DNA from: Gluconobacter wancherniae NBRC 103581
Lineage (GTDB): Bacteria > Pseudomonadota > Alphaproteobacteria > Acetobacterales > Acetobacteraceae
Reading direction: 5' to 3'
Assembly (NCBI RefSeq): GCF_007988885.1
Contig: NZ_BJUZ01000002.1
Coordinates: 1-64,000, forward strand
Length of the DNA stretch: 64,000 bases
How positions within the stretch are numbered: position 1 is the first letter of the stretch; every line of letters begins with the position of its first letter. Shown piece by piece: positions 14,440 to 31,701 of the stretch. The translations under genes and the position numbers were made by a program. Below the pieces are notes generated by a model. It saw only the letters and a list, made by a program, of their open reading frames with translations. It did not search any database and was not told the DNA's origin.

Positions 14440-15696
14440 TTACTTGGCTATCCATGCAGCCGTAATAGCCGGACTGACCAGTGTGCCGATTAGTTGATTG
14501 AATTTATAGAAACGGTTTGTCCGTGCATTAGCAACGAGGAGAACATCTTTGCTTTTCACCGGGATCTGTTGAGTCAGGAAATAAGATGTCGGACTCATCA
14601 GATCGGCCTGATATATGACGGGAACCCCTTTGGGGGTTATTGGCGTAGTAAGGCCCAATCTTCGCGCGGTCTCAGGAGTTTCGAAGCGGAATAGAAACGC
14701 GGCGTTCGGGTCGGCCCGCTCATCCGCAGGCCCTCCAACACGTGCAAGCGCCTCGGCCAGAGAGACATGCGGTGTTTCAAAACGCACTTCTGTCGCCTGC
14801 CTGCCAGCCGCTCCGAACACCGTATAGCTCCGTGGCTGATAAACGACATGTAGCCGGTCTCCCGGACGAGCTCGAAGATCCTCGGCAGGATATGTTTCCA
14901 GTGTTCCTAAATCCGTTTCGGCAGCGCGATCACCTCGTACGACCTGAACCTGCGTATCCTCGGGCGGATACATCGCGCCGCCAGCTATGGCCACAACATC
15001 TGATAACCGTTCTTGCGCAGTACTCAGTACGACGCGCCCCGGATGATGGACTGCCCCAGATACAATAACGGTATTCGAAATATCGTTCGCGATACGAACC
15101 ATAACTTCCGCGTTCTGTGACTTGCCGATGAGCCGCGTCCGAATCGACGCAGCAACTTGCTGGGGCGTAAGGCCGGAAACGTGCAAACGGCCCGCATATG
15201 GGATGGCGATCGTCCCATCCGCCTCGACCTCGGTAGGAGGCAAATTAGACGTCGTAACGCCTGTTGTCCCATGCGAGATCGCCCCAACATCGCCACTTTG
15301 CCCTGAGGACAACATGGAACCGCTGGAGGAAAATAATCCGTTACCAAGCTCGAAAACTGTGATTGTAAGAACGTCACCGGCCCCAACTCGGTCATTGTGG
15401 GCTGGAGGATTATTTGCCGTATCCAAGCTCGAAACCAATGGTGCCACCTCTGCGGACAGAATAGCGGCAACACGGGGAGAGAGGCGTACAATCGCATAAT
15501 CGAGCGGATTTCGCTTTGTATCCCGTGATTCTGAAAGCACACCGCGTTCTGTCGGCCCGCTATCAGGAAGTGCCGAACAGCCTCCAAGTATCAGAAGAAG
15601 CGCCACCTGAGACAGACCAAGAACGCTGAAATACCGGGAAGAACCTGTCAGAAAATTATTCGGCATAGTAGCTCGTTGCTTGGGATGTGCGATCAT
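14440..15696 (-). CDS. kpsD: Outer-membrane polysaccharide export (OPX) lipoprotein, KpsD/Wza type
   Basis: 418 residues. The N-terminus is a lipoprotein signal: a hydrophobic run then LILGGC with Cys40 as the lipid-attached residue. The mature part has the poly-export domain (VGAGDVLTITVFELG about residue 145; GTIAIPYAGRLHVSGLTPQQV about 190) and SLBB-like repeats (VIVSGAVHHPGRVVL, YTVFGAAGRQATEVRF, SLAEALARVGG), ending in a conserved KDVLLVANA region. OPX proteins form the periplasm-spanning outer-membrane channel for capsule. I chose the ATG at 15696 because AGAAAGG sits about five bases upstream; an ATG at 15666 has no such site, and a longer frame to 15873 is unlikely. It completes an exporter with KpsM, KpsE and KpsT. 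Confidence 0.9.
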   Translation of the reverse strand: MIAHPKQRATMPNNFLTGSSRYFSVLGLSQVALLLILGGCSALPDSGPTERGVLSESRDTKRNPLDYAIVRLSPRVAAILSAEVAPLVSSLDTANNPPAHNDRVGAGDVLTITVFELGNGLFSSSGSMLSSGQSGDVGAISHGTTGVTTSNLPPTEVEADGTIAIPYAGRLHVSGLTPQQVAASIRTRLIGKSQNAEVMVRIANDISNTVIVSGAVHHPGRVVLSTAQERLSDVVAIAGGAMYPPEDTQVQVVRGDRAAETDLGTLETYPAEDLRARPGDRLHVVYQPRSYTVFGAAGRQATEVRFETPHVSLAEALARVGGPADERADPNAAFLFRFETPETARRLGLTTPITPKGVPVIYQADLMSPTSYFLTQQIPVKSKDVLLVANARTNRFYKFNQLIGTLVSPAITAAWIAK

Positions 15697-16032
15697 GCAG
15701 CCTTTCTGGTCTGGTTTCACACTTGTTGCAACAGGTAGACGGCTTGAAAGGCCTTTTAAGTATGATGGAGGCCTCGTAAATCCCGTTCCTCGGAGCACAA
15801 CAAGAAACTCGAAAATGAACATGAAGGAGCTAGTTTTATGGCCAGAAAAAATTGATACACCTGAATGAAACATAGGGTCGAATTCTTGATTTGAATCAGA
15901 TATTTTAAAATTTTTCAGAAAATATGAAAGATTCTCTTTCTTTAATCAGTCTTGAAAGTAAACGAATATATAGTAACGCTTATATTGAAGTATTTATGGT
16001 AGCTTATTTATTGGGCGTTATCAATAAATAAG
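15697..16032. promoter_or_regulatory. AT-rich leader upstream of the OPX gene
   Basis: About 335 bases with no supported gene between kpsT and kpsD. It is very AT-rich and is the likely promoter region of the kpsD gene. Its right edge carries the inverted repeat at 16001-16034, which could separate kpsT from kpsD transcription. Confidence 0.4.
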
Positions 16033-16034
16033 CT
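16001..16034. repeat. Perfect 13-bp inverted repeat at the kpsT stop
   Basis: AGCTTATTTATTG at 16001-16013 is mirrored by CAATAAATAAGCT at 16022-16034, with an 8-base loop. It includes the kpsT stop codon. The stem is AT-rich and no T-run follows on the reverse strand, so it is not a classic terminator; it may be an attenuator, an mRNA 3'-end stabiliser or a protein site. Confidence 0.6.
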
Positions 16035-16680
16035 AAAGATTTTCATAGGTATCAATTGCCTCATCCATGCTATCGTAAGGAACTAATTTCCCCTGATCGA
16101 GAACTGCAACTCGATTACACGTCTCCCTCATAAAACCCATATCATGAGAGACAACAATCATCGCCCGTTCATCTCGCTTGCTAAATAGTTCCTCCTGACA
16201 ACGTGCATGGAAACGTGCGTCTCCAACCATTATGACTTCATCTATTAAATAACAATCGAACTCAATAACAATCGAGAGGGCAAAAGCGAGTCTTGCCCGC
16301 ATGCCTGAAGAATAGGTTTTGACAGGCTCGGTAAGTTGATGCCCTAGTTCAGCAAAATCATCTACAAAAGCGCGAGTATCTGTGTAATCTAGATTGTAGA
16401 TCCGACAAATAAATTTTAAGTTGTCGAGTCCGCTCAGGCTCCCTTGAAAAGCTCCGCCAAAGGCAAGGGGCCACGAGACAGTCATGTCTCTTTCTATCTT
16501 CCCCTCTGTAAAATGCTCTACCCCCCCGATTATACGGATCAACGTCGATTTTCCTGCGCCATTACGCCCGAGAATGCCGAGTTTTTCCCCTTTCTCAAGG
16601 GTGAAATTAACGCCGTTTAGTATACGGCGCCTTCCTCCATGGACTGGGTAGTCCTTTATGATATTAATGCATTGTAACAT
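16033..16680 (-). CDS. kpsT: Capsule ABC exporter ATP-binding subunit
   Basis: 215 residues, the short ATPase type of group 2 capsule exporters (no C-terminal carbohydrate-binding extension as in Wzt). Walker A is GILGRNGAGKST (about residue 34). The signature region is SSGMRARLAFALSI (about 125-140), Walker B is CYLIDEVIMVGD, and the switch histidine is in VVSHDM (about 175). It powers export of the lipid-linked polysaccharide through KpsM. Eight bases separate its start from the kpsE stop, so they form one operon. Its base composition is clearly more AT-rich than hldE and the housekeeping genes further right. Confidence 0.95.
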   Translation of the reverse strand: MLQCINIIKDYPVHGGRRRILNGVNFTLEKGEKLGILGRNGAGKSTLIRIIGGVEHFTEGKIERDMTVSWPLAFGGAFQGSLSGLDNLKFICRIYNLDYTDTRAFVDDFAELGHQLTEPVKTYSSGMRARLAFALSIVIEFDCYLIDEVIMVGDARFHARCQEELFSKRDERAMIVVSHDMGFMRETCNRVAVLDQGKLVPYDSMDEAIDTYENL

Positions 16681-16688
16681 CAGTCATC

Positions 16689-17852
16689 TCACATACTTTT
16701 ATGCTCACGGGCACCGGCAACAAGTAGTGAACCGATGAAATACAATCCAAGCATAGTTACGAAAACAATTGCTATGTCTGCAATGCTTCGAGGGTAGACG
16801 GGGTAGTCTGGAAAATCAGGTTTGGAGATCTCTTCCAAGTAAAGTTGCTGACGATCAGCTTGAATTCGTGCACTATCGAGTGCTGCATCTGCTGCGCTAA
16901 CTTCCCTTTCCACAAGTTGTCGCTGAAAGATCAAATCCTCGTATCCACTAATCTTCGGTACGAACGATTTTCCGTCCCCTGTCACTTTGGTCGCCGAATT
17001 GGCGATTTCTTGATCCAATGCACTCAGTCGTCGTGTCAAAACTTCGATCAAAGGGCTATTAGGTGTTGAACGACGGAGCTGCTCTAGTTGCACGCGCGTG
17101 GTCATTCTAGCTGTATCGAGGCCAGCAAGATCAGTCAGAAGCGGCTGGGACTGACGTTGGGGATCGAGCAGGCCTGTCTGATTGCGGTATGCATCGATTC
17201 GAATGTTGAGTGTCTGCAAACGACTGATAGCCTTATCTCGTTCGCGCAGAGACGCTGCGATGGTATTTTCGCGTTGTCGCTCGTTCATCTCGTTAACAAG
17301 CTGCTCGGCGGCCGTGAGAAGTGCACGGGCGATACGTTGAGAAGTCGCAGCCTCAAAAGTACGAACAGAAAGCGTGGAAAGACCGGTGGTCGTATCGAGT
17401 TCGGCTTTTACGTGTCTCTTATAGTAGCGGTAGAAATGTTCGAATGTGCCTCCAGAATAGAAATTCGGGAAACGCGCTAGAACGTCAGCTTCGGGAATAT
17501 TGAAAACATGGGAGAGATCCTGCGTTTTCAGCAGAAGCTGCGCCGCATCACGCGACATCACGTAGTCTTGAACGGCATACGTATCTTCGCTGCCACCTGT
17601 CGCGCCACCAGAGGATAAGATCCCCGCCAATAACCCTGGGGTCTGGGGCGTTTGTCCGCGAACTATAAAATCAGCCTGCGAGACATATTGAGGAGACGCT
17701 ATAAGGCCATAATAGATAATGGCCAACAACGTCGGTAGAACGACCATCAGAAGAAAAACTACACGGCGCCTACCCCAGGCAGTGATCTGCCTGATGCTAA
17801 GCCCAAATTTTACATCGGATCTGGAGGCCGAGGTGATGAACAGTTTAGCCAT
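16689..17852 (-). CDS. kpsE: Capsule export inner-membrane/periplasmic adaptor
   Basis: 387 residues of the KpsE/CtrB polysaccharide co-polymerase family. One membrane span near the N-terminus (RVVFLLMVVLPTLLAIIYYGLIA, residues about 29-51, given in part) is followed by SPQYVSQADFIVRG. A long periplasmic coiled-coil region (about 180-330) follows, then a second span near the C-terminus (IADIAIVFVTMLGLYFIG region). KpsE links the KpsMT exporter to the OPX outer-membrane channel. It is transcribed between kpsM and kpsT. A 328-base gap separates it from kpsM, unusual within such operons. Confidence 0.93.
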   Translation of the reverse strand: MAKLFITSASRSDVKFGLSIRQITAWGRRRVVFLLMVVLPTLLAIIYYGLIASPQYVSQADFIVRGQTPQTPGLLAGILSSGGATGGSEDTYAVQDYVMSRDAAQLLLKTQDLSHVFNIPEADVLARFPNFYSGGTFEHFYRYYKRHVKAELDTTTGLSTLSVRTFEAATSQRIARALLTAAEQLVNEMNERQRENTIAASLRERDKAISRLQTLNIRIDAYRNQTGLLDPQRQSQPLLTDLAGLDTARMTTRVQLEQLRRSTPNSPLIEVLTRRLSALDQEIANSATKVTGDGKSFVPKISGYEDLIFQRQLVEREVSAADAALDSARIQADRQQLYLEEISKPDFPDYPVYPRSIADIAIVFVTMLGLYFIGSLLVAGAREHKSM

Positions 17853-18180: not shown

Positions 18181-18975
18181 TTACTGAACGTTGATATATT
18201 TCCTACTTCTGAGTGTCAGTGAAATCCCCATAATAAGCATGAACGCTATCGCGTATGAATTATAAACCATGTCATAATACGGATGAATAGTGTGTCCGAA
18301 TTGACCACCCCGAATCATTTCAATATTATTAACAGACGGAGACCACAGAAGAAGGTTTCTCGCTTTGAGTGGTAGCCAGCTTTCTAAAATAAAAGCACCA
18401 GAAAATGGTAAAGAAAGATAAGAAAAAACGCTAATAGATTTCTCGACTAGTTCTGATCTCTGACTTAAAGCGGCAACAAGTAAAGCTGTCGCATAAGAAA
18501 AAAGGCTCTGGTAAAAAATTCCTACGTAAAGAAGACCATAATCCTTTGGGGGGGTCATATATCCCAGTAGCATAGCACCGGAGCAAACGATAATCCCTGC
18601 GATGATCGTACCAGCTATTTCAAGAATGCTTCTGGCCGTAATGATATCGAGGGGCGTTACCTGTCGATGAAAGAGCAAACTGCCATTCGCTTCAAATGCC
18701 CGAACGGAACTTGCCAAGCAATGTCGCCACATCGTCAAGGGGACATAACCTGTAATGACAACGGCTGTAGTTTGAAGGCCATGTTCATGAGATGGGCGGA
18801 TAGCTGTCCAAGCAATAGCGACGCCAGCACAAAAGAGTATCGGCTCGCCTACGATCCAAAGATATCCGAGATTTTCGCGTCCGAAGCGAGTGTGTAATTC
18901 GCGCAGCATCAAGGCGCCTATAACCCGAATTTGAATTAGAAAGAGTTGCGGAAGAGTTTGGCGACTTTGAAGCAT
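18181..18975 (-). CDS. kpsM: Capsule ABC exporter permease
   Basis: 264 residues with six predicted membrane spans, ABC-2 type. The N-terminal amphipathic segment has GALMLRELHTRFGRENLGYLW (split: GALMLRELHTRFGREN then LGYLW), the hallmark of KpsM/CtrC/BexB permeases. Later marks are GYVPLTMWRHCL, RQVTPLDIITARSILE, LSLPFSGAFI and WSPSVNNIEMIRGGQFG near the C-terminus. With KpsT it carries the anchored polysaccharide across the inner membrane. It is the first gene of the reverse kps run. Upstream DNA (18976-21110) is a pile-up of IS remnants, so its original promoter may have been replaced. Confidence 0.94.
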   Translation of the reverse strand: MLQSRQTLPQLFLIQIRVIGALMLRELHTRFGRENLGYLWIVGEPILFCAGVAIAWTAIRPSHEHGLQTTAVVITGYVPLTMWRHCLASSVRAFEANGSLLFHRQVTPLDIITARSILEIAGTIIAGIIVCSGAMLLGYMTPPKDYGLLYVGIFYQSLFSYATALLVAALSQRSELVEKSISVFSYLSLPFSGAFILESWLPLKARNLLLWSPSVNNIEMIRGGQFGHTIHPYYDMVYNSYAIAFMLIMGISLTLRSRKYINVQ

Positions 18976-19691: not shown

Positions 19692-20290
19692 GATCTGGAG
19701 GGTACGAAAAACCCCTTGGTTCTGACCTGTTCTGTATGATTCCATCTCTTTTGATCTGGAGCTGGTTGGCCTATTCAGATGGAAGCAAAGGCCGTCGTCC
19801 GCCGTTTGATCCGGTGCTGATGTTCAAAATTCTAGTAATTCAGACACTGAACAATCTGTCTGATGAACGGACGGAGTACCTGATCAACGATAGCCTGTCC
19901 TTATCATGCGTTTTTCTGTGATGTGGATTTTGAGCTGTTCCGTGAACGCCTGACCTAGGCGGGTGCTATTGAACGATGTTTGACCGCTTTGACACGACCC
20001 TGCGCAACGCGAGCTATTTACTGATGTCGGGTCAGATTCTGGACGCTAGACTGGTGACCGCTCCAAAGCAGCGCAGTAAGAACGCTGCAAAAGGGAATCT
20101 GCGAGCAGACCGTATTCCCGCAGGCTGGCAGGACAAGCCTGCAAATCTGTCCCACAAGGACCGTCATGCACGCTGGACGCTGAAGTTTACCAAAGCGGAA
20201 GCGGCAGGACGATGGAAGCATGCCATCCAGCGGTCTCGCCACTCCGTTCTTTGGCTACAAATCCCAGGTATCGATAGCGGTGCCAGGTCT
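19692..20290 (+). mobile_element. Decayed IS5-family element (IS12528-like), left part
   Basis: Starts with a terminal repeat GATCTGGAGGGTACGAAAAA at 19692 that is the inverse of 572-597. Transposase pieces follow: SDGSKGRRPPFDPVLMFKIL, VIQTLNNLSDERTEYLIND, then after a break FERCLTALTRP/MFDRFDTTLRNASYLLMSGQ, RIPAGWQDKPANLSHKDRHA and RWTLKFTKAE, ending at about 20280 in FGYKSQVSIA. The C-terminal catalytic part is missing. A possible right end lies at about 21015-21045 beyond the IS110 remnant, which would mean one IS inserted into the other. Confidence 0.8.
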
Positions 20291-20413
20291 ATACTCCCAG
20301 AGTGAACCAGGCTGTTTCGGGGCTGAAGTCCCTGAGAGATTCGCCGATCGTCTCGTCTTTTGTGAAGCATGAACCCGGTCCGGCCGCGCTGACGGGGTAA
20401 GAGTAACGTTATT

Positions 20414-21110
20414 GTGATGTCTGCTTTAAATGAAGTTGATCGGCCCTCACTCACCGCTTTTGTTCAGACTGCCGTGATGGGGCTGATGACAGATGACCAC
20501 GTTCAGGTCATCATGGAGCCAACCGGCATGAGCTGGTTTCCTGTTACCCACCATCTTGCAGATGCTGGCGTTACCGTGGTTCGCGTCAAGGGAAAACGGG
20601 TTAAGGCTCTACGCCGTTACCTTTCCGGACACGCCAAAACAGATATGGCTGATGCCCAGATTTTGACGGCCATACCGACATTTGGTGGATCACTTCTTGA
20701 TCCAGTCTATATTCCGGATCCACGAAGCCACGCTCTTCAACGTCTGACCAAACAGAAAAGTCGCTTTCAGAACGAGATCGCGGATGCCAGGCAGTGCCTG
20801 CTTGATCTCATTCGTTGGGCATCCCACAAGCTCTTCTGCTCAGTATTCCGGGTGTCGGCCGTCATCTCGCGCCGACCCTGATTGGTATCTTGCAGAACAT
20901 TGAGCGGTTGCATTCTGAAAAACATTTACGGTGTTTCTGTAGCCTGTTTCCTAAGAAGGCCGATAGCGGTGGTGTGGAGCGAGCAGGTCAGACCCTGATC
21001 CAGAATGTCAATAACCGTATCAAACAATGGTTCTTCGATCTCCCCCTCGTGCCTCTGCTACAACGTCTTGGCTGCTGGTGTGGTGGCCTTGAAGGCATTG
21101 GGTCTTATCA
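20414..21110 (+). pseudogene. IS110-family transposase remnant
   Basis: The forward frame 20414-20881 has VIMEPTGMSWFPVTHHLADA, VTVVRVKGKRVKALRRYLSG and HAKTDMADAQIL, which is the DEDD RuvC-like N-terminal domain of IS110 transposases without its first Asp. A shifted frame from 20815 has LLLSIPGVGRHLAPTLIGIL and FCSLFPKKADSGG, the transposase_20 (helix-hairpin-helix) domain with the usual PGxG motif. The frameshift at about 20815 and truncated ends make it non-functional. Its tail merges into the 5' flank of the next gene. Confidence 0.8.
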
Positions 21111-21169: not shown

Positions 21170-23416
21170 ATGATACTGAACCAGAAGATCGAGAAATTAG
21201 GCGACACCGCGGATAAGGCATACCGTCTTCTAAAGAAAAAGATGAGAACTCCGGCTAACAGGCTGGCAGCGACATTGACGTCACTCGGAGATCGGGCACG
21301 CGATAGCGGTAAATTTTTGGCCGCCGCCGATCTTTATCGTCAGGCCATCGAAGCGGGAACTCCGCCCGTCGGGCTACTGCTGATATGCGGGCACATGTAC
21401 AAAGAGGGGCGGGATTTTCCCTCAGCCGAACGATACTACAAGAAGGCGCTCGCCGTGTCCCCCATGGACAAGGAAGTTTTCCTGCAGCTCGGCCATTTCA
21501 ACAAATCCATAGGGAGATACGGCGAAGCAGAAAAATACTACCAAGAGGCCATCATCGTCGATCCCGACTGGGATGTGCCTCGGCAAGAAATCGAAAATCT
21601 CCGTCGCTCGAACGAATATCGCCGCCTTTATCGTAAAGGAAGCCAAGCGGACGGCAGGCTCAGCAGTGATCTCGTCGCCAAGACACGCGACGAACTGTAT
21701 ATCGATCACGGTCCAGCTTTTGTTTTTACGCATAATGGCAACGGGCAGGCGACTCGCTGGGGCTCCGGCGTAACGATTCGCGGCATAGATGCGTTGCGCG
21801 GTTACGTCGTTTCTGACCAGATCTACACGTCCATTGAAATTTCCCTCGACGGCACTCTCATTTATGCTGGCGATCTTACGCCGGCGCCGTTGCGACGCGA
21901 AAAATCGAACGCAGCGATGCGCAAATATGTCTATAATGCGTGGATCGATTTCTCCGATATCTCCTATGGTCCACACGATCTCCTGTTCGTAGCCAAGGGA
22001 CCAGGTGTCGAGCCGCGGGAAGGAGTCAACTGGCGGCGCGAACACGTGATTTTCGCGGAACCGTTTCCCGAAGATGTTATGATTGAAAGCCCTGCCTATG
22101 TCTCGCGGGCACAGGTCGAGGCAATTCTTGCCCAGATGCCGGTCTCTGAGGCCGTAAGTGTTGAGGCACAGGCCCTAGTTTCGGCCCCCGCGATCGTCGC
22201 CCCCTCCTTGCAGATAGCGCCCGAACCTGCCGACCTGTGGAAGACCGTGCCGGAGGCGTATTTCTCGGCGGAGGTCGTCGCGCGCGTACGGAACGCCTCG
22301 CGCCGTCTCCAAGACGCGATCAATGCCCTTCCGACCGTCGTTATGACACCGAAGCCGGACACGCTGCCCGGCAAGGTCCGCAATATTGCCGTCATTCGCG
22401 GCGACCAGTTGGGAGATCTGTCCGTATCGGTCGGAGCCCTTATGCGGCTTCGGCAGGCACTCCCCAATGCCCGCATCGTGGGTCTGCTCAGTCCTGCTAA
22501 TGTCGATCTAGCCAAGACACTCGATGTATTCGACGAATATGTAGTTTTGGATTATCCGGACGATGCGCTCCAGCGTGACCGTGTAATGAACCGGGTGGGC
22601 CAGTTAGACCTGATCAAAAAACTCAAAACCTATAATTTTGACGTCGCAATCGATTTTTCGATTGCCGGTGGGACTAGGAAGCTCCTGCCAATGACCGGCG
22701 CCCCGATCACCATCGGTTTCGGTAACGGCAACGAGGGGTTCCGGTCTCTCAACCTCAACGTTGTGGCGATGGACCCCCGCGGAGGTGGTCGTGGCATGCG
22801 GCATTCCGCAAACGTTCATCTGCTGGCCGAAGCGATCACGCTCTGGCTCAATGGCGCCGGACAAATTGTCAAGCGAAATGACATCACGCGTGAGGATATT
22901 GCAAAATTCGGACTTGCGTCGACGGAGGACTACATTGTCATTCATAGCGGATCTAGGCTGCCGATGGTGCGCTGGCTGCAATATCCTGCGTTGTGCGAAC
23001 GTTTCTTAGCCCAGGGCTGGAAAGTGGTCTATTTCTCCGATGATGAATCCGAGATTGAGCGTCTGCCGAAGGATAAAATAGACGATGGCAGCATTATCTA
23101 CATGTCGCGCAAGATTTCATTCAAAGAATTCGATGCGCTGCTGGCCTATTGTTCGCTTTTCGTCGGAAACGATTCCGGGCCGAAGCATCTCGCAAGCCTG
23201 CGCGGAGCTAAGGTACTGAGTATCCAACCAGGGCGGTCGGACTGGCGCGAATGGGGGCAGGAGTTAACAGGAAACATCCTGATCCGCCGTGTGCCGTGTG
23301 CAGGTTGCGCCTTACATTATGATCCTGAAGAATGCGCCCATGATGTCGCGTGCGTGACGAAAATCACGCTTGATGAGGTCTTTCAGGAGGCGATGAGGCT
23401 CCTTGAGGTGGTGTAG
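21170..23416 (+). CDS. TPR and GT9 heptosyltransferase-type fusion protein
   Basis: 748 residues from the chosen ATG. Residues about 25-140 are TPR-like helices (LGDRARDSGKFLAAADLYRQ, GHMYKEGRDFPSAERYYKKA, LGHFNKSIGRYGEAEKYYQE). Residues about 175-300 form a beta-rich module of unknown function with DHGPAFVFTHNGN, YNAWIDFSDI and WRREHVIF. From about 400 there is a GT9 fold: IAVIRGDQLGDLSVSVGALM, MTGAPITIGFGNGN, VIHSGSRLP and VGNDSGPKHLASLRG (about 665). The C-terminal Cys cluster is CAGC-x9-C-x4-C. GT9 enzymes transfer heptose from ADP-heptose, so this fits hldE/hldD/gmhB. An open frame runs back to 21005 into IS DNA, so the native start is uncertain. The next gene is a tandem paralogue. Confidence 0.82.
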   Translation: MILNQKIEKLGDTADKAYRLLKKKMRTPANRLAATLTSLGDRARDSGKFLAAADLYRQAIEAGTPPVGLLLICGHMYKEGRDFPSAERYYKKALAVSPMDKEVFLQLGHFNKSIGRYGEAEKYYQEAIIVDPDWDVPRQEIENLRRSNEYRRLYRKGSQADGRLSSDLVAKTRDELYIDHGPAFVFTHNGNGQATRWGSGVTIRGIDALRGYVVSDQIYTSIEISLDGTLIYAGDLTPAPLRREKSNAAMRKYVYNAWIDFSDISYGPHDLLFVAKGPGVEPREGVNWRREHVIFAEPFPEDVMIESPAYVSRAQVEAILAQMPVSEAVSVEAQALVSAPAIVAPSLQIAPEPADLWKTVPEAYFSAEVVARVRNASRRLQDAINALPTVVMTPKPDTLPGKVRNIAVIRGDQLGDLSVSVGALMRLRQALPNARIVGLLSPANVDLAKTLDVFDEYVVLDYPDDALQRDRVMNRVGQLDLIKKLKTYNFDVAIDFSIAGGTRKLLPMTGAPITIGFGNGNEGFRSLNLNVVAMDPRGGGRGMRHSANVHLLAEAITLWLNGAGQIVKRNDITREDIAKFGLASTEDYIVIHSGSRLPMVRWLQYPALCERFLAQGWKVVYFSDDESEIERLPKDKIDDGSIIYMSRKISFKEFDALLAYCSLFVGNDSGPKHLASLRGAKVLSIQPGRSDWREWGQELTGNILIRRVPCAGCALHYDPEECAHDVACVTKITLDEVFQEAMRLLEVV

Positions 23417-23469
23417 GTAGACCTGTCTGCACGTCACGTCCACTCCTCAACGTAATACGGATTATCGCC

Positions 23470-25596
23470 ATGAACGTCCTAAAATACCTCAACGTCAAAC
23501 CAGAGCCCACGGATACCGGGACTGATATTCGCGCAGGATTGTTGTCGCGCGCCGAGGAAGCGCGCTCGCGCGGCAATTTCGTCGCCAGCGCGCTGCTGTT
23601 CGAACACATAGCCGAGATGGAATCGAACCCCGCCTCCGCCCTCCACCAGAGTGCTCGGATGTATATCGAGGCTACTGATTTTACCCGGGCAGAGCAGTTG
23701 CTGCTGCGTGTCGCGCAGGCAGAGCCGCATAATGCGGAGGCATATCTCGATCTCGCGCAGCTCTCGTTCCATCAGTCTCGTCTCGACGAGGCGGAATTTT
23801 TCTATGAGCGGGCGCTGGCACTGCGACCCGAATGGCATGAGGCGAAGGCGGGCCTCCTGCGCGTCGGCGAGACGCGCACCGAGCAGCTCCGGCGCGAACG
23901 CTTAGCTCGCAAGGAAACTGCGTTGAGTTTTGCGCAGTACGAAGAAAAGGAAAACCTGCTCGGTTCGCGAGACAAACGCGTCGATCCCAGTCTTTTCAAA
24001 AAGGGATGGAACGAACTCCATCATGATCACGGCCCAGCCTTCGTCTTTACGCATAGTGGCAACAATGCCAAGACGGAATGGGGGAACGGCGCGACATTAA
24101 GGGGCATCGAGGCCCTTCGGGGCTATCTCGTGTCGGACGTCCCGATGGCGAGCTTACGCATCTATATGGACGGTGACGTGATCCACGACGCCCCGCTGAT
24201 CGAGGCCCCGCAGCGGTTCGAGCGCTCCAACCCGAATATTCGCAAATGGGCTTATAACGCATGGATCGATTTCACGAATTTGCCCCGTGGCTGGCACGAG
24301 TTTATATTCTGCGCGTTCGGTGCTGACGGCGAGGCGCATGAGGGGCGGACATGGCGGCGAGAGCACATGATTGTCGCCGACCCGCTGCCAGCGGAATTCG
24401 CTACAGAGTCGGACACGGTCGTGCCGCCGTTCGAGCCGGGAACGTCAGGCTCTCTGGTCGAGCGGATCAATGCCCGTCCTAGCATTGTTCACAAGGCGTC
24501 ACCCCACTCCTTCCCGGGGAAAATCGATACGGTCGCTGTCCTGCGCAGCGACCAGCTTGGCGACACAGCAGTGTCTGCCGCAGCGTTTCTGCATCTGCGG
24601 CAGATCCTGCCGGACGCACGTCTGGTGGGTCTGATGAGTTCAGCCAGCGCCGAGTTGTCGCGCTCTTACGGCGTATTCGATGAAATCATCGAATTGGATT
24701 TTCCCGAGGATCAGGCGCAACGCCAGCGGGTGATGGATTTCGATGCACAGGAAGCTCTGATCGATCGGCTCAAGCCATATAATTTTGATGTAGCGATCGA
24801 TTTCGTCGTCAATGGCACGTCCAAGCGGTTGGTCGCGATGACCGGCGCGCCGGTGACGATGGGCTTCGGAAACGACGATTCCAAGACGTTTGCGATGGAC
24901 ATCGTCACCAACGACCCTTTGTCCAACAACGACATCACGCATCATTCCGTCCGCATGATGATGCTAGTCAAAAGCCTCGAACTATGGATGAAGAGTGATA
25001 CCCGGATCGTGCGGCGCGAGGATATCGGGCGCGAGGAGCTCGCCGCTTTCGGTATCGCGCCCAACGAACGGTACGTGTTGATCCACTCCGGCTCGCGCAT
25101 AACCTTTACTCGCTGGCAGCATTATGTCGCGCTGGCCAAACAGGTCATCGCCGAACTGGGGGTGAAAGTTGTCTTCATGGCCGATGATGACTCTGTTCGT
25201 GACCAGTTCGCGGAAGAGGAAGGGGCAGGGCGCCTCATCTATCTTGCGCGCAAGCTTCCGTTCGACCAGTTTGATGCCCTGATTTCATTCGCGTCTGTGT
25301 TTGTCGGAAACGATTCTGGTCCGAAACATCTTGCTGCTCTGCGCGGAGCACCTGTCGTCAGCCTACATTCTTCGCGGATTAGCTGGATCGAATGGGGACA
25401 GGAACAGACCGGCGTCGTCATCAGTCGCCAGGTGCCCTGTGCGGGCTGCGGACTACATCATGATCCGGAGGAATGCGCGCAAGATGTCGCATGTATGAAG
25501 TATATCCGGCTCGCCGAAGTCTTTCGCGAGGTCCGCGCACTGTTCGAAGCGGGGGCGCCAAACGATCAGGTGGTTGCTGCCATCTCGCCAGCGTAA
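23470..25596 (+). CDS. TPR and GT9 heptosyltransferase-type fusion protein, paralogue
   Basis: 708 residues with the same layout as the gene at 21170. TPR-like repeats occupy about 15-135 (AEEARSRGNFVASALLFEHI, LAQLSFHQSRLDEAEFFYER). The beta module at about 183-305 has DHGPAFVFTHSGNN, YNAWIDFTNL and WRREHMIV. The GT9 domain starts at about 352 with VAVLRSDQLGDTAVSAAAFL and includes MTGAPVTMGFGNDD, LIHSGSRITFTRW and VGNDSGPKHLAALRG (about 612). The C-terminal CAGCGLHHDPEECAQDVAC cluster is shared. The two genes are 53 bases apart, clear products of tandem duplication that have diverged. It is followed after 14 bases by an HldD-type epimerase, which supports ADP-heptose as donor. Acceptor unknown; the TPRs may mediate assembly or membrane docking. 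Confidence 0.82.
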   Translation: MNVLKYLNVKPEPTDTGTDIRAGLLSRAEEARSRGNFVASALLFEHIAEMESNPASALHQSARMYIEATDFTRAEQLLLRVAQAEPHNAEAYLDLAQLSFHQSRLDEAEFFYERALALRPEWHEAKAGLLRVGETRTEQLRRERLARKETALSFAQYEEKENLLGSRDKRVDPSLFKKGWNELHHDHGPAFVFTHSGNNAKTEWGNGATLRGIEALRGYLVSDVPMASLRIYMDGDVIHDAPLIEAPQRFERSNPNIRKWAYNAWIDFTNLPRGWHEFIFCAFGADGEAHEGRTWRREHMIVADPLPAEFATESDTVVPPFEPGTSGSLVERINARPSIVHKASPHSFPGKIDTVAVLRSDQLGDTAVSAAAFLHLRQILPDARLVGLMSSASAELSRSYGVFDEIIELDFPEDQAQRQRVMDFDAQEALIDRLKPYNFDVAIDFVVNGTSKRLVAMTGAPVTMGFGNDDSKTFAMDIVTNDPLSNNDITHHSVRMMMLVKSLELWMKSDTRIVRREDIGREELAAFGIAPNERYVLIHSGSRITFTRWQHYVALAKQVIAELGVKVVFMADDDSVRDQFAEEEGAGRLIYLARKLPFDQFDALISFASVFVGNDSGPKHLAALRGAPVVSLHSSRISWIEWGQEQTGVVISRQVPCAGCGLHHDPEECAQDVACMKYIRLAEVFREVRALFEAGAPNDQVVAAISPA

Positions 25597-25610
25597 GGAA
25601 AAGCAAACCC

Positions 25611-26591
25611 ATGATCATTATTACCGGAGGGGCCGGATTCATCGGCTCTTTTCTTCAGGCTGAGTTGCACGCTCGTGGTGAAGAAACTGTCGTGGTTGAC
25701 TGGCTCGGCCATGAAGAGAAATGGCGTAATCTACAGCTTCATGCTCCCTCCACCATGCTATCTCCCGCTGATTTGGACGCATTCCTCTCAACTGATCCCC
25801 CGGTCCGCGCCGTCTTCCATATGGGGGCGATCAGCGAGACTACGGCCACGGATGGTGATCTAGTCTGGCGAACGAACGTGACGCTGTCGCAGCGGCTGTG
25901 GACCTGGTGCGCGAAGCGCGAAATTAGCTTCATCTACGCATCATCTGCCGCGACCTATGGTGCTGCGGCTTCCATGGATGCCTTTTCGGACATCCCCGCG
26001 AAGCTGGACAGTCTGCGGCCCCTGAACTTATATGGCTGGTCGAAGCATGTCTTCGACCAGTGGGTGATGCGCCGGATCGCCAAGGGAGAAAAGGCCCCGC
26101 CCCAGTGGGCAGGCCTCAAGTTCTTCAACGTCTATGGTCCGAACGAATATCACAAGGGCAAGATGATTTCGGTTATCAAAGTGAAGTTTGACGAAATTCG
26201 GCGCGGCCAATCTGCCACGCTCTTTCGATCCGACGACCCGCTGATAGAGGATGGTCATCAGGCGCGTGACTTCATCTGGGTCGGAGATGTGATCGCTGTA
26301 ATGCTGTGGCTGTTAGATCACCCGGAAGTCAGCGGACTGTTCAATTGCGGTACTGGAACGGCGCGCACCTACCTTGACCTGACGAAGGCGATCTTCGCGG
26401 CCCTCGACGTGACACCGACCGTTTCATTCGTGGACATGCCGACTGCGTTACACGGCAAGTATCAGAACTTCACATGCGCAGATATGTCATCGCTATGCGA
26501 CAAAGGTTACGATCGGCAGTTCACGCCGCTTGAGACCGGCATCGAACGCTACATAAAAGACTATTTGATCGCAAAAACACCTTACCGGTAA
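25611..26591 (+). CDS. hldD: ADP-glyceromanno-heptose 6-epimerase, alphaproteobacterial type
   Basis: 326 residues, extended short-chain dehydrogenase fold. NAD(P) site IIITGGAGFIGSFLQ at the N-terminus, [13 protein letters not shown] (catalytic Ser/Thr region, about 105), LYGWSKHVFDQWV with YxxxK (about 141-145), [17 protein letters not shown] (about 168), RDFIWVGDVI and HGKYQNFTCADM near the end. It converts ADP-D-glycero- to ADP-L-glycero-manno-heptose. The start is the ATG 14 bases after the upstream GT9 stop; an in-frame extension to 25473 only overlaps that gene. It differs strongly from the second HldD at 29974, so two lineages coexist. It sits at the right edge of an IS-bounded block. 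Confidence 0.9.
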   Translation: MIIITGGAGFIGSFLQAELHARGEETVVVDWLGHEEKWRNLQLHAPSTMLSPADLDAFLSTDPPVRAVFHMGAISETTATDGDLVWRTNVTLSQRLWTWCAKREISFIYASSAATYGAAASMDAFSDIPAKLDSLRPLNLYGWSKHVFDQWVMRRIAKGEKAPPQWAGLKFFNVYGPNEYHKGKMISVIKVKFDEIRRGQSATLFRSDDPLIEDGHQARDFIWVGDVIAVMLWLLDHPEVSGLFNCGTGTARTYLDLTKAIFAALDVTPTVSFVDMPTALHGKYQNFTCADMSSLCDKGYDRQFTPLETGIERYIKDYLIAKTPYR

Positions 26592-26645
26592 GAAGGCAGC
26601 TGTAGGAGGCGATTCGTTCCTCATGCAAATGGGACAGAACGATGG

Positions 26646-27513
26646 TGGACGTGTCCTAGTTTACTTCCGGACCATGGGTTGTCTGTTAAGCTGCGTTGCG
26701 CTCATCTTCCAGAAGGTTTCTCCATTGAAGCGTGGAATGCAGCCTCTGCGGATTACAGAAATCATGGATGTAGGATGTGAGAGCCTGCTCGACCTCCTGA
26801 CGCGCCATCCGTACTTGCTGCCACAGGAGTTCAGCTTTTAGGGTCTTGAAGAAGCTTTCCGTGACAGCATTGTCCCAGCAGTTTCCCCTTTTGCTCATGG
26901 ACACGATAAAGCCATGGGCAGAAAAGAGTTTGCGGTAATCTTCTGAACAATACTGATTGCCGCGATTAGCATGATGGACGCAGCCGGCGATCTCCGGCGG
27001 AAAATCCACGAGCCCTAAGTGTCTCTGTCACACGGGGGCTTCCGTAACATCGCCTGCTCTGGGCGTGAATGGCGCGGATATGAAGCATCAGAATGCCATC
27101 CTGTCTTTTGCAGGCACAGACCGGATGCTGTCGACAGGCTTTCAAACATCGCTCGCTGACACCAAACAATCGATAGACTCGATCACGGGAAAGCGGACCG
27201 CAATATCGTGCAATGAACGCAAATCTCAAGATCTTTGGTTCGCGGCGTAACTTCTCATTCTCACGCAATAACGCCGTATGATCCGTTGTGTCATCAGCGA
27301 CAGTATCGTGCTTCTGGGAAACACGTCTCCATGTCTTCAACGTCAAAAGCTGATACCCAGATTTTGGGTAATAAGCTCACGCGACAGACTGCTGCTCAGA
27401 GCTTAATGTACCGCCTTGTGCCTGACCGAGGCCTTATAAATTCCCACCATTACACGTCTCCTTCATGACCATCTTTGGTCTTAAAAGTCCGAAATTAAAC
27501 TGGTACACGTCCA
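26646..27513 (-). mobile_element. Deleted IS3-family element with both terminal repeats
   Basis: The ends are inverted repeats: TGGACGTGTCCTAGTTTACT at 26646 and, read from 27513 backwards, TGGACGTGTACCAGTTTAAT, about 22 of 27 positions matching. Between them, on the reverse strand, 27346-26966 encodes the OrfA end and OrfB start (ALLRENEKLRRE, RCYGSPRVTETLRARGFSAG), and 27009-26686 encodes the OrfB end (NRGNQYCSEDYRKLF, KRGNCWDNAVTESFFKTLKA). About 870 bases remain of a typical 1.2 kb, and the middle of the DDE core is gone. No clear target duplication is visible. Confidence 0.85.
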
Positions 27514-28067
27514 TTGCCCTGCTGCCGCGCCAATGGTATTGCGCTGCCTTGAGAACTGCCATCAAAACGCTCAAACAGTGGACGCCCGCCTGTGCTTTCG
27601 TCTGAATGTGCCAGTGCCTGCGTCAGATCAGACGGAACACCTCAAAGTCCGCAGTCCGTGAAAGGCCTCAAGTTGGTCAACAAGGTCACTCAAACGAGCA
27701 GGCCGCTCTTTAACTATCAAAGAAACCGAACTGCTTCATCCGCTGGAGCCACCTCGGTGTTTTTGACCGGATATTCGTCGCCCTGACAGAACAGGCTGGC
27801 CCTTCTATGTTATGAGAATAATCGTCGAACTCTGGTATGAAATTCTAGAGTTCTGGATTTTATTGTCTCGATTCAATGCCATATGGGCTGACTGCCCAGC
27901 AGGACTTCGCTTGCATCAGGTAGATCATCGTCGAGGAGGTGTTTGGAAGGTTTTGTGATCATAATGCGCGCTCATCTTGGTCCAGTGCAGGTCTTAATTC
28001 AGTCGGCACCGGCCTTTCAGTAAGGGTTCTAGAATGGAATCTGCAATAAAAAAGAAGGTCTTGAAGC
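27514..28067 (+). pseudogene. IS5/IS1031-like scrap in an otherwise empty stretch
   Basis: Only 27718-27800 is recognisable: one forward frame reads NCFIRWSHLGVFDRIFVALT, the pattern of the N-terminal region of IS1031-type transposases (FxRWxxxGVFxRIF). The remaining sequence to 28067 shows no gene. The last 30 bases contain AAGAAGG 10 bases before the ATG of the next gene. Confidence 0.5.
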
Positions 28068-29858
28068 ATGGCGGAGGTATACAGCGTTCGGAATGTAGGA
28101 CACTGCGACTTATATACTGACGGGAACACGCTCCTTTCTCATCTGTCCCCACAAGCAGGACCTACTCGCGCAGCGGCCCTGCTTGACGGCGTAATTTTCC
28201 GCCATATCGGCTGGCTGGCCAGGCGACTGATAGTATGGTCTCGGAGTAGGAACCCGGTCGTTGGGTTTGTTCTACGTCCTCTAGGTAACTCCCTTGCCAC
28301 TCTTCTTGCTGTAAGTCAGACACGTTTTTCGATTGTCCAGATTGGTTGGATGAAAACCAAAACAGGCGTACCGATCCTTTCTGGTATCGTAGCGTTCCGT
28401 GTGCTTGTTCATTCGCGCCACGAGCTTACAGAGGTTCTGGCTTACTCGGACGATACGGGAGAGGTCATTAGTCGCATTGCGCCAGTACGCTTGATGACGA
28501 CCGGTGCTGTTACCACCTGGTCTGCCAATCTTTGGATTGACACGTCTTGTCTCAATGTGGGTAAGCAGAAGATTCATATTCGTGCCTGGTCTGGATCGCG
28601 TCTGGCCGGGCGGATGCGTCGTTTCGTCGTGGTGCAGAGCGAGGAGACAACTCTGAGCGCGGTACCCGACGCAGTACATTCATCTTCTTATCTTCAGTCA
28701 TCTGGCTCTCCGACAAATGACGCCACCTCTTGGGTGCTGTCTCGCCCGGTCGCACGTCATTATCCTCCAAATCCCCTTTTCTCAGGTCCTATAAACTCAA
28801 TCCTTGTCTTACGAACCGATCAACTCGGTGATGTCGCCGCTTCGCTCCCCGCTATGGCTCGGCTTAGAAAGCTTTTTCCCCAGGCCAAAGTGACGATGCT
28901 TCTTCAGACAGCTAATGTGCCTGTAGCTCAGGCCTCGGGTGTCGCGGACGAGTATCTCGACCTGACATTGCGTTACGATCCAAAGACAGAGCGCCGCTAT
29001 CTGGATGCAGAGTCGGACGTCCATCTGCGGAATCAACTTCGCGGGCGTAGCTTCGATCTGGCTATTGACCTTTCTCCTGGTGCGGAAAGTCAGCCCCTTC
29101 TCCTTCTCTGTTCAGCACGCTATCGTGTAGGTTTCAAGCCTGAGCAGTTCCCGTTTCTGGATTTTGGGATTGAGGTAATATCCCGTGAAGCTATCAACCG
29201 TAAGCCTGTTATTTCCCATACAGCCCATGTTGAGCTTCTTGTATCTTCTATTGAAAAACTCATGGATCAGAGGCGTGAAACCGTTCCTCGCTGTGAATCT
29301 ATCTCATCGCAATTTGATCAGATACGTCCTCATGATCGCCCCATCATCGTCCATTCAGGCGCCCGCCATCCCATCAATCGCTGGCCGATCGAGAATTTCC
29401 TGACACTCTGCGCTGCCCTTGCTGCAGAGAGTGGACGCGATGTTCTTCTTTTCGTCGATGGCGACACGCTTAACGATGCAGTACGCGTACGTTGCACCGA
29501 ACTCCCTGGTGTGACGCTCATGGACCACCTGCCTATGGATGCATTTGACGCTCTGGTCGCACAAGCTGCTCTGTTTGTGGCTAATGATACCGGCCCTAAA
29601 CATCTTGCGGCTGCACGTGGTGTGCCAGTTGTTAGTATCGCTATTCCCCGCTTGAATTGGGAGGAGTGGGGACAGAACCAAGGAGGTGTGATTTTATCTC
29701 GTGCTGTTCCGTGTGCGGGATGTGGACTGAACAATCGTGATGCCTGTGGACGAGATGCAGCGTGCATCACCACAATATCTGTCGAGACCGTTCTCAAGGC
29801 TGCACTGGACGTCTTCGAACAGTCGAAGATCGAATATAAAAGAATGTCCCAAGACTGA
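28068..29858 (+). CDS. GT9 heptosyltransferase-type protein with an N-terminal accessory domain
   Basis: 596 residues. Residues 1-240 lack TPRs but contain a beta-rich module (FSIVQIGWMKTKTGVP, WSANLWIDTSCL, IHIRAWSGSRLAGRMRRFVV) that looks like a divergent form of the module in the two proteins at 21-25.6 kb. GT9 starts at about 243: ILVLRTDQLGDVAASLPAMA, FDLAIDLSPGAES, IVHSGARHPINRWP and VANDTGPKHLAAARG (about 505). It ends with the CAGCGLNNRDACGRDAAC cluster. Third member of the island's GT9 group, likely using ADP-heptose. It is 115 bases upstream of an hldD gene. A longer variant is unlikely because upstream DNA is IS debris. Confidence 0.82.
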   Translation: MAEVYSVRNVGHCDLYTDGNTLLSHLSPQAGPTRAAALLDGVIFRHIGWLARRLIVWSRSRNPVVGFVLRPLGNSLATLLAVSQTRFSIVQIGWMKTKTGVPILSGIVAFRVLVHSRHELTEVLAYSDDTGEVISRIAPVRLMTTGAVTTWSANLWIDTSCLNVGKQKIHIRAWSGSRLAGRMRRFVVVQSEETTLSAVPDAVHSSSYLQSSGSPTNDATSWVLSRPVARHYPPNPLFSGPINSILVLRTDQLGDVAASLPAMARLRKLFPQAKVTMLLQTANVPVAQASGVADEYLDLTLRYDPKTERRYLDAESDVHLRNQLRGRSFDLAIDLSPGAESQPLLLLCSARYRVGFKPEQFPFLDFGIEVISREAINRKPVISHTAHVELLVSSIEKLMDQRRETVPRCESISSQFDQIRPHDRPIIVHSGARHPINRWPIENFLTLCAALAAESGRDVLLFVDGDTLNDAVRVRCTELPGVTLMDHLPMDAFDALVAQAALFVANDTGPKHLAAARGVPVVSIAIPRLNWEEWGQNQGGVILSRAVPCAGCGLNNRDACGRDAACITTISVETVLKAALDVFEQSKIEYKRMSQD

Positions 29859-29973: not shown

Positions 29974-30975
29974 ATGCGTAAATGTATCATTGTAACCGGT
30001 GCAGCCGGCTTTATTGGAAGTAACATCGTTCGAGGCCTGAACGCCCGCGGGTATACCAATATCATTGCGGTCGATAATCTCGCGAATGCAGAGAAATTTC
30101 ATAATCTCGTTGATCTTGGCATTAGCGACTATGTGGACAAAACAACATTTTATGATTCTTTCTCGGCAGGGAAGTTCGGTTCGGTAGACGCTATTTTCCA
30201 TGAAGGTGCGTGTTCCGATACAATGGAGCATGATGGCCGCTATATGCTTGCCAATAATTATGCCACGAGCAAGGCGTTGCTAGATACCTGTGCGTCTACG
30301 GGCACGCGCCTGCTCTATGCGTCCAGTGCTGCGACTTATGGCGGATCATCAAAATTTATAGAGGATCCCCGTTTCGAGCGTCCGCTAAATGTATATGGCT
30401 ATTCGAAACTGCTTTTCGACCAGGTTGTACGTCAATCTCTACCGCTGTTCCGCAGTCAGGTAGCAGGGTTTCGCTACTTTAATGTTTACGGTCCTAATGA
30501 GCAGCATAAAGGCCGCATGGCCTCGGTCGCCTATCACCAATTCAATCAGTTTCGGGCAGACGGAAAGGTTAAACTGTTTGGCGCTTATGATGGTTACGGA
30601 CCCGGCCAGCAACTGCGTGATTTTGTCTATGTTGACGATGTCGTAGCGGTCAATCTTTGGTTTTTTGACAATCCAGAACACAGCGGCGTGTTCAACCTGG
30701 GTTCTGGCCGGGCACAACCGTTTAATGACGTGGCGCATGCAGTGGTGAACAGTTTGCGCAGTACACAGGACCAGTCTTCCATCACGCTGGAGCAGATGGT
30801 CAGTGACGGGATTGTGGAATATATTGATTTTCCTCAAGCGCTGATTGGTAAATATCAAAGTTTCACCCAAGCCGATCTGACGGGTCTACGTGCCGTCGGT
30901 TGCAACCATGTGTTTGCGGATGTTGCAACTGGAGTTTCGGCTTATGTCCGGTCCCTTTTGGCGGAAAAATCCTAA
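29974..30975 (+). CDS. hldD: ADP-L-glycero-D-manno-heptose 6-epimerase
   Basis: 333 residues, closely following the E. coli HldD layout: [87 protein letters not shown] (YxxxK), [55 protein letters not shown]. It is a cytoplasmic NADP-dependent epimerase for the C6 position of ADP-heptose. It is the second HldD in the window and of the enterobacterial-like subtype. It may serve core LPS while the 25.6 kb copy serves the capsule block, or the reverse. Its stop overlaps a short coupled frame (TAATG). Confidence 0.95.
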
Positions 30976-31124
30976 TGACCACCTCCCCGCTTATGGTTGA
31001 AATGTTAGTGCGTACGTTTGTTCGGGCAGGACACAGGCTGCTGCAAATCTTCGCATGCTCTTACGAATATGGCCGTAGCATAATGATAACACTGGATGAG
31101 GCACATCATCATGCCGCATGCTAG
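30975..31124 (+). CDS. Possible small coupled protein of unknown function
   Basis: A 49-codon frame ([20 protein letters not shown]...) begins with an ATG sharing a base with the hldD stop (TAATG) and runs into the start region of the gmhB-like gene. Such overlap favours reinitiation. I recognise no family; it may only be a coupling leader that carries ribosomes to gmhB. Confidence 0.25.
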   Translation: MTTSPLMVEMLVRTFVRAGHRLLQIFACSYEYGRSIMITLDEAHHHAAC

Positions 31125-31701
31125 TAATGTTATGCTACAGCGTCGACCGATTTCTTCCGGTACGCCAGCACTATTCCTGGATCGGGACGGAGTCGTTAAT
31201 GTTGATACTGGCTATCTCTCAGACCCAGAAAGCGTAACGCTCCGTGACGGGGCCGCGACTATGATTGCGGCTTTCAATGCTGCGGCTTGGCCGGTGGTCA
31301 TAGTCTCAAATCAAAGTGGTCTGGGTCGTGGTTATTTTGATCTTTGCACCATGCTGGCCGTACAGGAACGGATTGAGGCACTGCTTCTGCACGAAGGGGC
31401 ATATGTCGATGCCGTGTTTCTTTGTGGTGCAGCTCCTGACGACGTTAGCTCTCTTGCCGAATGGCGTAAGCCGGCACCAGGAATGTTGACGACAGCGGGG
31501 CTGCTATATGGCATTGATCTGACGCGAAGTGTACTGGTGGGCGACAAGGTTAGTGACATGCAGGCAGCCGCCACTGCAGGACTATGCAAAGGTTTTTTAG
31601 TCGATGCTGACTGTATCGCAGACATCCAGATCGTTCCAATTCCAGTTCACGCCGTAAATAATCTGTCAGATATTTACCCTGCCTCTTTGCTCTCTTGGTA
31701 G
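31096..31701 (+). CDS. gmhB: Heptose bisphosphate phosphatase-like HAD hydrolase
   Basis: 201 residues, HAD subfamily IIIA. Motif I is ALFLDRDGVVNVDTGYLSDP (both Asp present, about residue 26-28), motif II is VVIVSNQSGLGRGYF (about 75), the Lys of motif III is in EWRKPAPGML (about 130), and motif IV is VLVGDKVSDMQAAATAG (about 150). GmhB removes the 7-phosphate of heptose 1,7-bisphosphate between the two HldE steps. The usual zinc ligands (HxxxxxCxC before RKP) are absent: only one Cys (FLCGAAP) remains there, and WRKP replaces CRKP. The start could be 31096 or, with GAGG nine bases ahead, the ATG at 31111. Confidence 0.85.
   Translation: MRHIIMPHASNVMLQRRPISSGTPALFLDRDGVVNVDTGYLSDPESVTLRDGAATMIAAFNAAAWPVVIVSNQSGLGRGYFDLCTMLAVQERIEALLLHEGAYVDAVFLCGAAPDDVSSLAEWRKPAPGMLTTAGLLYGIDLTRSVLVGDKVSDMQAAATAGLCKGFLVDADCIADIQIVPIPVHAVNNLSDIYPASLLSW

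Follow-up and report, generated by a model that had tools for sequence, protein, structure and literature searches.

The 64,000-nucleotide stretch of Gluconobacter wancherniae NBRC 103581 analysed here (contig NZ_BJUZ01000002.1, positions 1 to 64,000; hereafter the window) encodes three oversized proteins of glycosyltransferase family 9 (GT9), all on the + strand, which we call P1, P2 and P3. P1 (21170-23416, 748 residues) and P2 (23470-25596, 708 residues) combine tetratricopeptide repeats (TPRs), an immunoglobulin-like (Ig-like) module and a GT9 domain, and P3 (28068-29858, 596 residues) joins a divergent copy of the module to a GT9 domain. The TPR, Ig-like module and GT9 arrangement is a distinct GT9 architecture not named by Pfam or NCBIfam, and a literature search returned no paper evidently devoted to it. 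The sizes and coordinates given in an initial annotation of this region, made from the sequence alone, are borne out by the open reading frames. Membership in GT9 is likewise supported by PF01075, which scores 51.7, 60.2 and 61.5 bits in P1, P2 and P3 against a Pfam gathering cut-off of 22.

Architecture of P1, P2 and P3

TPR families exceed their Pfam cut-offs in P1 (21254-21568) and in P2, where the AlphaFold2 model places the TPR helices at residues 17-164 (23518-23961); a Pfam scan of P3 returned no TPR family above cut-off, in agreement with the initial annotation. The frame of P1 opens further upstream, at 21005 (803 residues, with the TPR matches at residues 84-188), and its first 55 codons adjoin insertion-sequence debris. 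Longer N-terminal extensions are found in some P3-type relatives, with TPR matches in those of loci L041 and L055 (locus numbers refer to the contig scan described below). The proteins at L055:2556-5936 (1126 residues, with TPR matches) and L058:8153-11521 (1122 residues) carry about 615 residues ahead of the module and GT9 domain. We also note proteins of about 500 residues adjoining the module genes in L044, L045, L046, L050 and L053, which match P3 at about 20% and consist of a non-TPR part followed by a GT9-like N-lobe without the Cys cluster described below.

A module of about 115 residues precedes the GT9 domain in all three proteins. It lies at 21689-22111 in P1 (E 6.2e-44 to the TPR-type module profile A6), at 24037-24378 in P2 (residues 190-303, ten strands in the AlphaFold2 models, compared by Foldseek and VIA-align) and at 28320-28667 in P3 (alignment A8). 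The motifs DHGPAFVFTH, YNAWIDF and WRREH are present in P1 and P2, and the P3 copy, described earlier as a divergent version, is homologous to the P1/P2 type: hhalign aligns A6 with A8 over 109 columns at a probability of 99.1 and E 1.4e-18. A6 comprises 38 of 40 TPR-type modules, the window's P1 and one Komagataeibacter melaceti row being left out for their long linkers.

The module was initially described as unassigned, and this holds. Pfam and NCBIfam, the only family libraries used, gave no convincing match, and the best Pfam candidate, a TcfC E-set domain (E 0.0029, in 4 of 38 members), is at chance level and was rejected. The best match to PDB sequences has E 1.3, and a viral library gave none at E <= 0.001. 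AlphaFold2 predicts P2 (40 aligned sequences) with a mean predicted local distance difference test score (pLDDT) of 87.1, as TPR helices, strands 190-303 and a GT-B domain. Structure prediction of the module alone (38 sequences) yields a confident Ig-like sandwich (pLDDT 90.2). Its neighbours are Ig-like/E-set sandwiches: sulfite oxidase (best in Foldseek, E 2.1e-4), 6tn6 (best in VIA-align, Z 9.3 over 91 residues, root-mean-square deviation 2.5), the N-terminal part of chitinase A (3b9e, Z 8.9) and the Fn3-like part of CbhA, all slightly above background. Because the best Z barely exceeds the 7-8 that the tool gives as typical in the absence of relatives, we assign the predicted module to the Ig-like/E-set class and claim nothing narrower, this being a common fold that says nothing about role, including the polysaccharide binding or enzyme anchoring suggested in the initial annotation.

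The GT9 (GT-B) parts span 22355-23413 in P1, 24523-25569 in P2 and 28779-29837 in P3. They were compared in alignment A7, which holds 39 of 54 GT9 parts and, like A11 (30 of 40), was thinned by hand for closeness. Profile matches to 3tov (E 2.2e-18), WaaF 1psw (4e-12) and WaaC 2gt1 (2.5e-9) place the domain within the family, and Foldseek with the P2 model returns the same three structures, with WaaF 1psw at the top (E 5.6e-13, TM-score by target 0.46). The Asp of an LGD motif (P2 D365) is invariant in the 39 rows of A7 and is a candidate catalytic residue, fitting the N-lobe catalytic Asp of GT9, which is D110 in TibC (PMC4358343). The Asp of an NDSG motif is found in 37 of the 39 rows, with Glu in the other two.

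All three proteins end in the four-Cys cluster noted in the initial annotation, at 23297-23353 in P1 (by sequence and spacing count), 25438-25494 in P2 (C657, C660, C669 and C675, each found in 38 of the 39 A7 rows, with one row gapped) and 29712-29765 in P3 (C549, C552, C560 and C566, invariant in the 14 rows of alignment A5, which is the 19-row A4 without five short proteins of another architecture). Its spacing, C-x2-C-x7/8/10-C-x5-C, is kept in 14 of 14 P3-type rows and in all but one of 40 TPR-type rows; the row that lacks it, from L053, stops short of the cluster. The cluster is not a special mark of module proteins, since 41 of 42 GT9-only control proteins carry one. The suggestion that WaaF-like ends bear a related cluster stands for a Paraburkholderia WaaF, where the spacing differs, and fails for WaaF of E. 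coli K-12.

Clades, a probable cassette and locus context

A maximum-likelihood tree was built from 71 GT9 domains (40 TPR-type, 14 P3-type, 10 of the 42 controls, four of nine TibC-family and three others). It sets the TPR-type proteins (40 rows, support 96/100) apart from the P3-type (12 rows, 100/99), with L055 and L058 not placed. Judged from this tree, the module proteins form two old clades.

P1 and P2 of the window each pair with a K. melaceti protein (63% and 69% identity; the P1 partner is L035 7756), not with other Gluconobacter proteins, and P3 pairs with Gluconobacter (88%). In DNA comparison the window is 79-87% identical to three other Gluconobacter loci over two segments, roughly 9.2-19.0 kb and 27.9-31.7 kb; between 19.0 and 27.9 kb, among matches of at least 150 bases, Gluconobacter contributes only 157 and 290 bases, and 21.3-26.4 kb matches K. 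melaceti DNA at 68%. Insertion-sequence remnants lie on the left (19694-20881, +, DUF772 and IS110 types, PF05598 and PF01548) and on the right (26686-27376, -, rve and HTH_21, PF13683 and PF13276). Immediately after P2 lies HldD1, an ADP-glyceromanno-heptose 6-epimerase (25611-26591, +, TIGR02197 359.3 bits, cut-off 274.6). K. melaceti shares the gene order P1-P2-HldD; in the other Gluconobacter loci and in Pararobbsia the P2-type gene comes first. We read P1-P2-HldD1 as a cassette that was probably swapped in between remnants of insertion sequences, much as in a capsule-type switch, the source and direction of the transfer being inferred.

Homologues of KpsM, KpsT, KpsE, Wza, KpsC and KpsS occur together in the window, those of KpsM, KpsT, KpsC and KpsS above Pfam cut-offs. 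On the - strand these are KpsS-like (1840-3276, PF05159 259.6 bits; NF050054 271.9 bits, cut-off 600) and KpsC-like (3273-5060, PF05159 142.9 bits, no NCBIfam match at 1e-5) proteins, a Wza/VexA-like export protein (14440-15873, NF011722 95 bits, cut-off 456), a KpsT-like ABC ATPase (16033-16680, PF00005 67.1 bits), a KpsE/BexC/CtrB-like protein (16689-17852, TIGR01010 264.5 bits, covering almost all of the model, cut-off 437.5) and a KpsM-like ABC permease (18181-18975, PF01061 33.9 bits, cut-off 26.9). Genes for ADP-heptose supply are also present: HldE, the heptose-7-phosphate kinase/adenylyltransferase (12697-14157, -, TIGR02198 355.5 and TIGR02199 193 bits, both above cut-off), a second epimerase, HldD2 (29974-30975, +, TIGR02197 415.3 bits), and a GmhB-like heptose-bisphosphate phosphatase (31096-31701, +, NF006506 130.2 bits, below its cut-off of 178). 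The remaining genes include three GT4 glycosyltransferases (599-1843, -; 7673-8857, +; 9202-10563, +; PF00534 65.1, 84.7 and 77.8 bits) and a methyltransferase-like protein (10579-11508, -, PF13578 at E 0.0044, below cut-off). A sulfatase-domain protein (5249-6736) and a fatty-acid-hydroxylase-like gene (7037-7660) adjoin the KpsC/KpsS-like genes.

A contig scan found 256 relatives, of which the best 80, falling in 69 distinct loci, underlie the locus counts. A module before the GT9 domain aligns in 27 of these loci (L032-L058, 24 genomes), and 42 (L059-L100) match by GT9 only. Hosts of the module-GT9 proteins are Acetobacteraceae, Sphingomonadales, Caulobacteraceae, Rhizobiales and one Burkholderiaceae. 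The GT9-only proteins, which serve as controls, are 819-1915 residues long, some cut by contig ends, and a Pfam scan of three of them (L060, L062, L087) shows GT2 together with a C-terminal GT9. Neighbouring genes were scored by BLAST against the window proteins at 80 bits or more, within the limits of flanks and contigs. At least two export-type genes accompany 11 of the 27 module loci (8 of 24 once the three Gluconobacter loci L038-L040 are set aside) versus none of the 42 controls (Fisher p 7e-6, not corrected for relatedness), and at least one accompanies 14 versus none. At least one ADP-heptose gene is found at 18 of the 27 module loci versus 25 of the 42 controls, and an AGE gene at 13 versus 2. 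Capsule export thus goes with the module group, and ADP-heptose genes go with both groups. HldE was seen in 24 of the 42 GT9-only loci.

At the level of genomes the proteins are sparsely distributed. P2 is matched at E <= 1e-20 in 10 of 100 relatives, five with module-type proteins (G000, G009, G013, G018, G034) and five with frames of 1361-2000 residues matched in the GT9 part only. Among 385 genomes of the class the module profile matched four, clearly in the window's own genome (G000) and partially, at E about 2e-4, in three others. None of 18 plasmid records covers 80% of P2, and the Gemmobacter record among them lacks the module.

The AGE-family protein beside HldE

Directly after HldE lies a gene for an AGE-family protein (11456-12697, -, PF07221 199 bits). 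It does not belong to the GmhA family (TIGR00441); what we propose is the same role, not membership. Characterized AGE relatives include mannose isomerase (NF051846, below cut-off), sulfoquinovose isomerase and cellobiose 2-epimerase, and ketose-aldose isomerisation is the kind of chemistry needed for the step. Among 26 Gluconobacter genomes, 19 carry AGE only, five GmhA only, two both and none neither. Similarly, among 299 Acetobacteraceae genomes (E <= 1e-15), 110 carry AGE only, 147 GmhA only, 11 both and 31 neither (Fisher p 3e-39, uncorrected for relatedness), and HldE is found in 291 at E <= 1e-60. AGE-only species stand beside GmhA-only species in eight genera (g1, g4, g16, g19, g31, g345, g349, g372). 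For 74 of the 121 AGE-bearing genomes HldE has a position among the matches listed; the AGE start is within 4 kb in 41 of these, within 30 kb in two and at neither distance in 31. Because AGE and GmhA are complementary across the Acetobacteraceae, the AGE-family protein is probably a non-orthologous sedoheptulose-7-phosphate isomerase that replaces GmhA in the first step of ADP-heptose synthesis.

Several observations weigh against this assignment. The TIGR00441 cut-off is reached in only 3 of the 299 genomes, so that GmhA here denotes a sub-cut-off match nearly throughout; 31 genomes have neither gene and 11 have both, among them the window's own; and many AGE matches, at just 27-40% identity, may have another function. 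An in-frame stop also interrupts several AGE matches in six-frame reading. Single stops of this kind were seen in the congeners G011, G013 (second copy), G015, G016, G021 and G025, and may reflect an extended end or a decayed gene. A literature search found no paper on AGE in place of GmhA. With 110 of 299 genomes carrying AGE and no GmhA match, the complementary pattern opens a gap in ADP-heptose synthesis to direct testing.

Proposed function and known relatives

Taken together, the locus probably makes and exports a heptose-containing capsule, and we consider it somewhat better than an even proposition that P1-P3 are the heptosyltransferases of this Kps-type capsule, with P1 and P2 paired and scaffolded by their TPRs. 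In such a scheme, ADP-heptose would be supplied by HldE, the GmhB-like protein and HldD, and P1, P2 and P3 would act as cytoplasmic GT-B enzymes adding heptose from it to a polysaccharide that is elongated on a lipid-Kdo anchor of the KpsC/KpsS type and exported by the KpsM/KpsT/KpsE/Wza-type machine of the locus. Orthologous P1 and P2 sets are adjacent in Gluconobacter, Komagataeibacter and Pararobbsia; the two may be old paralogues retained as an adjacent pair, probably for two different linkages of a repeat, and a further linkage, distinct from these, may be formed by P3. Docking of the enzymes to one another or to the assembly complex is the probable task of the TPR part, and the Ig-like module may join the TPR part to the catalytic domain or aid dimerisation or acceptor positioning. 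The link to capsule assembly raised in the initial annotation is supported by the genes for ADP-heptose synthesis and Kps/Wza-type export that are found both in the window and at many related loci. The analysis establishes the architecture, the homology of the modules, the clades and the recurring locus content, whereas the donor, the acceptor, the sequence of steps and the roles of TPRs and module are inferred.

The donor-phosphate lysine of GT9 enzymes is K192 in WaaC. In TibC the donor phosphate is contacted by K230 (PMC4358343), and in our alignment this lysine has no conserved counterpart between HxGxR and W; a nearby column shows K in 8 of the 39 sequences. This absence counts against the capsule heptosyltransferase assignment and makes ADP-heptose a presumed donor of P1-P3. 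Other points against it are the KpsS, KpsE and Wza matches below NCBIfam cut-offs; the 9 of 27 module loci without an ADP-heptose gene and 13 of 27 without an export gene at 80 bits; the ADP-heptose genes at 25 of 42 loci that lack the module; other likely ADP-heptose users in the same genome, namely a TibC-family enzyme and two ordinary-sized GT9 proteins; and a literature search in which no chemical description of a polysaccharide of this kind turned up.

We consider it rather improbable that P1-P3 are heptosyltransferases of the lipopolysaccharide (LPS) core or O-chain that lie in a capsule locus by chance. The window's HldE is the sole strong HldE match in the genome and would also feed LPS, if its LPS contains heptose. 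However, P1-P3 are rejected as WaaC, WaaF or WaaQ equivalogs, scoring at best 66.8, 35.4 and 57.5 bits against cut-offs of 185.3, 134.6 and 170.2 (TIGR02193, TIGR02195, TIGR02201); two ordinary-sized GT9 genes lie elsewhere in the genome; and relatives of P1-P3 occur in only 3 of the 25 other genomes of the genus, unlike core enzymes. One study ascribes gmhB of G. entanii to LPS (PMC9818992). Since GmhB adjoins HldE and AGE in G. entanii LTH 4560 (L037), with a TPR-type GT9 1.3 kb further, that gene may alternatively serve a pathway other than LPS.

Similarly improbable, if marginally more so, is that P1-P3 are protein O-heptosyltransferases whose TPRs and module select a protein substrate, as in O-GlcNAc transferase or in TibC with autotransporters. 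TPRs precede a GT-B domain in O-GlcNAc transferase and SPINDLY, Foldseek matches these as well as TibC (4rap/4rb4), and profile alignment of the GT9 parts to the TibC family (probability 77.6, E 1.9e-5) brings the four Cys of both into register. The Foldseek alignment to TibC is longer in columns than the GT9 part, its output giving no residue ranges, and TibC is not among the 50 VIA-align matches listed for the full P2 model. Although the GT9 parts align, membership in TibC/AAH (BAHT) is ruled out by the Cys spacing and by TIGR04414, which has no match to P1-P3 at E <= 1. Moreover, profile comparison found no match between the module and eight TibC-family N-termini (a flattened beta-barrel in TibC, residues 1-97), no PF03797 autotransporter was found in five genomes, and the recurrent neighbours are polysaccharide export genes. 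A true TibC-family enzyme is encoded in the same genome outside the window (contig position 82827-83987, within the interval 82611-84047, L107:2611-4047; TIGR04414 565 bits), and the glycoprotein role offered initially as the alternative to capsule assembly is accordingly not supported. TIGR04414 matches above cut-off number three in G009 and seven in G013, although none of the five genomes has a PF03797 autotransporter. Polyketide clusters of Gluconobacter are reported to include genes for O-heptosyltransferases (PMC8776678).

A shift of the GT9 domains to another donor, and transfer of a sugar other than heptose, would fit the non-conserved TibC lysine but is equally doubtful, given the HldE, GmhB and HldD genes often alongside and the HldD inside the exchanged P1-P2-HldD1 cassette.

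Returning to the capsule assignment, we tentatively put forward, as a fuller model that is less likely than its parts, that the locus is a self-sufficient heptose-capsule system, that AGE replaces GmhA, that P1 and P2 take turns in polymerising a heptose-rich capsule, that P3 makes the join to the anchor, and that the pair is a cassette exchangeable between genera. If the capsule assignment is true, it would add a TPR/Ig-like/GT9 architecture whose hosts range over acetic acid bacteria, Sphingomonas, Caulobacteraceae and a member of the Burkholderiaceae. It would also link ADP-heptose, familiar chiefly as a precursor of LPS, to a capsule.

The locus resembles ABC-transporter-dependent (group 2) capsule loci in its KpsM/T/E, Wza and KpsC/S-like genes and differs from them in its ADP-heptose genes and large GT9 enzymes. 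P1-P3 share the GT-B fold, the LGD and NDSG motifs and nearby ADP-heptose genes with WaaC, WaaF and WaaQ (GT9, PF01075), but are about twice as long, carry TPRs and/or the Ig-like module at the N-terminus and lie in a capsule-type locus. O-GlcNAc transferase and SPINDLY (family GT41) have a TPR superhelix before the GT-B domain like P1 and P2 (Foldseek), whereas P1 and P2 are GT9 enzymes of a bacterial polysaccharide locus with an Ig-like module in between. Finally, P1-P3 are like TibC/AAH in that a beta domain precedes GT9 and four clustered Cys lie close to the C-terminus, and unlike them in the TPRs of P1 and P2 and in the Cys spacing, which is C-x2-C-x7/8/10-C-x5-C in 53 of 54 rows versus the iron-finger spacing C-x2-C-x15-C-x11-C in nine of nine TibC-family rows.

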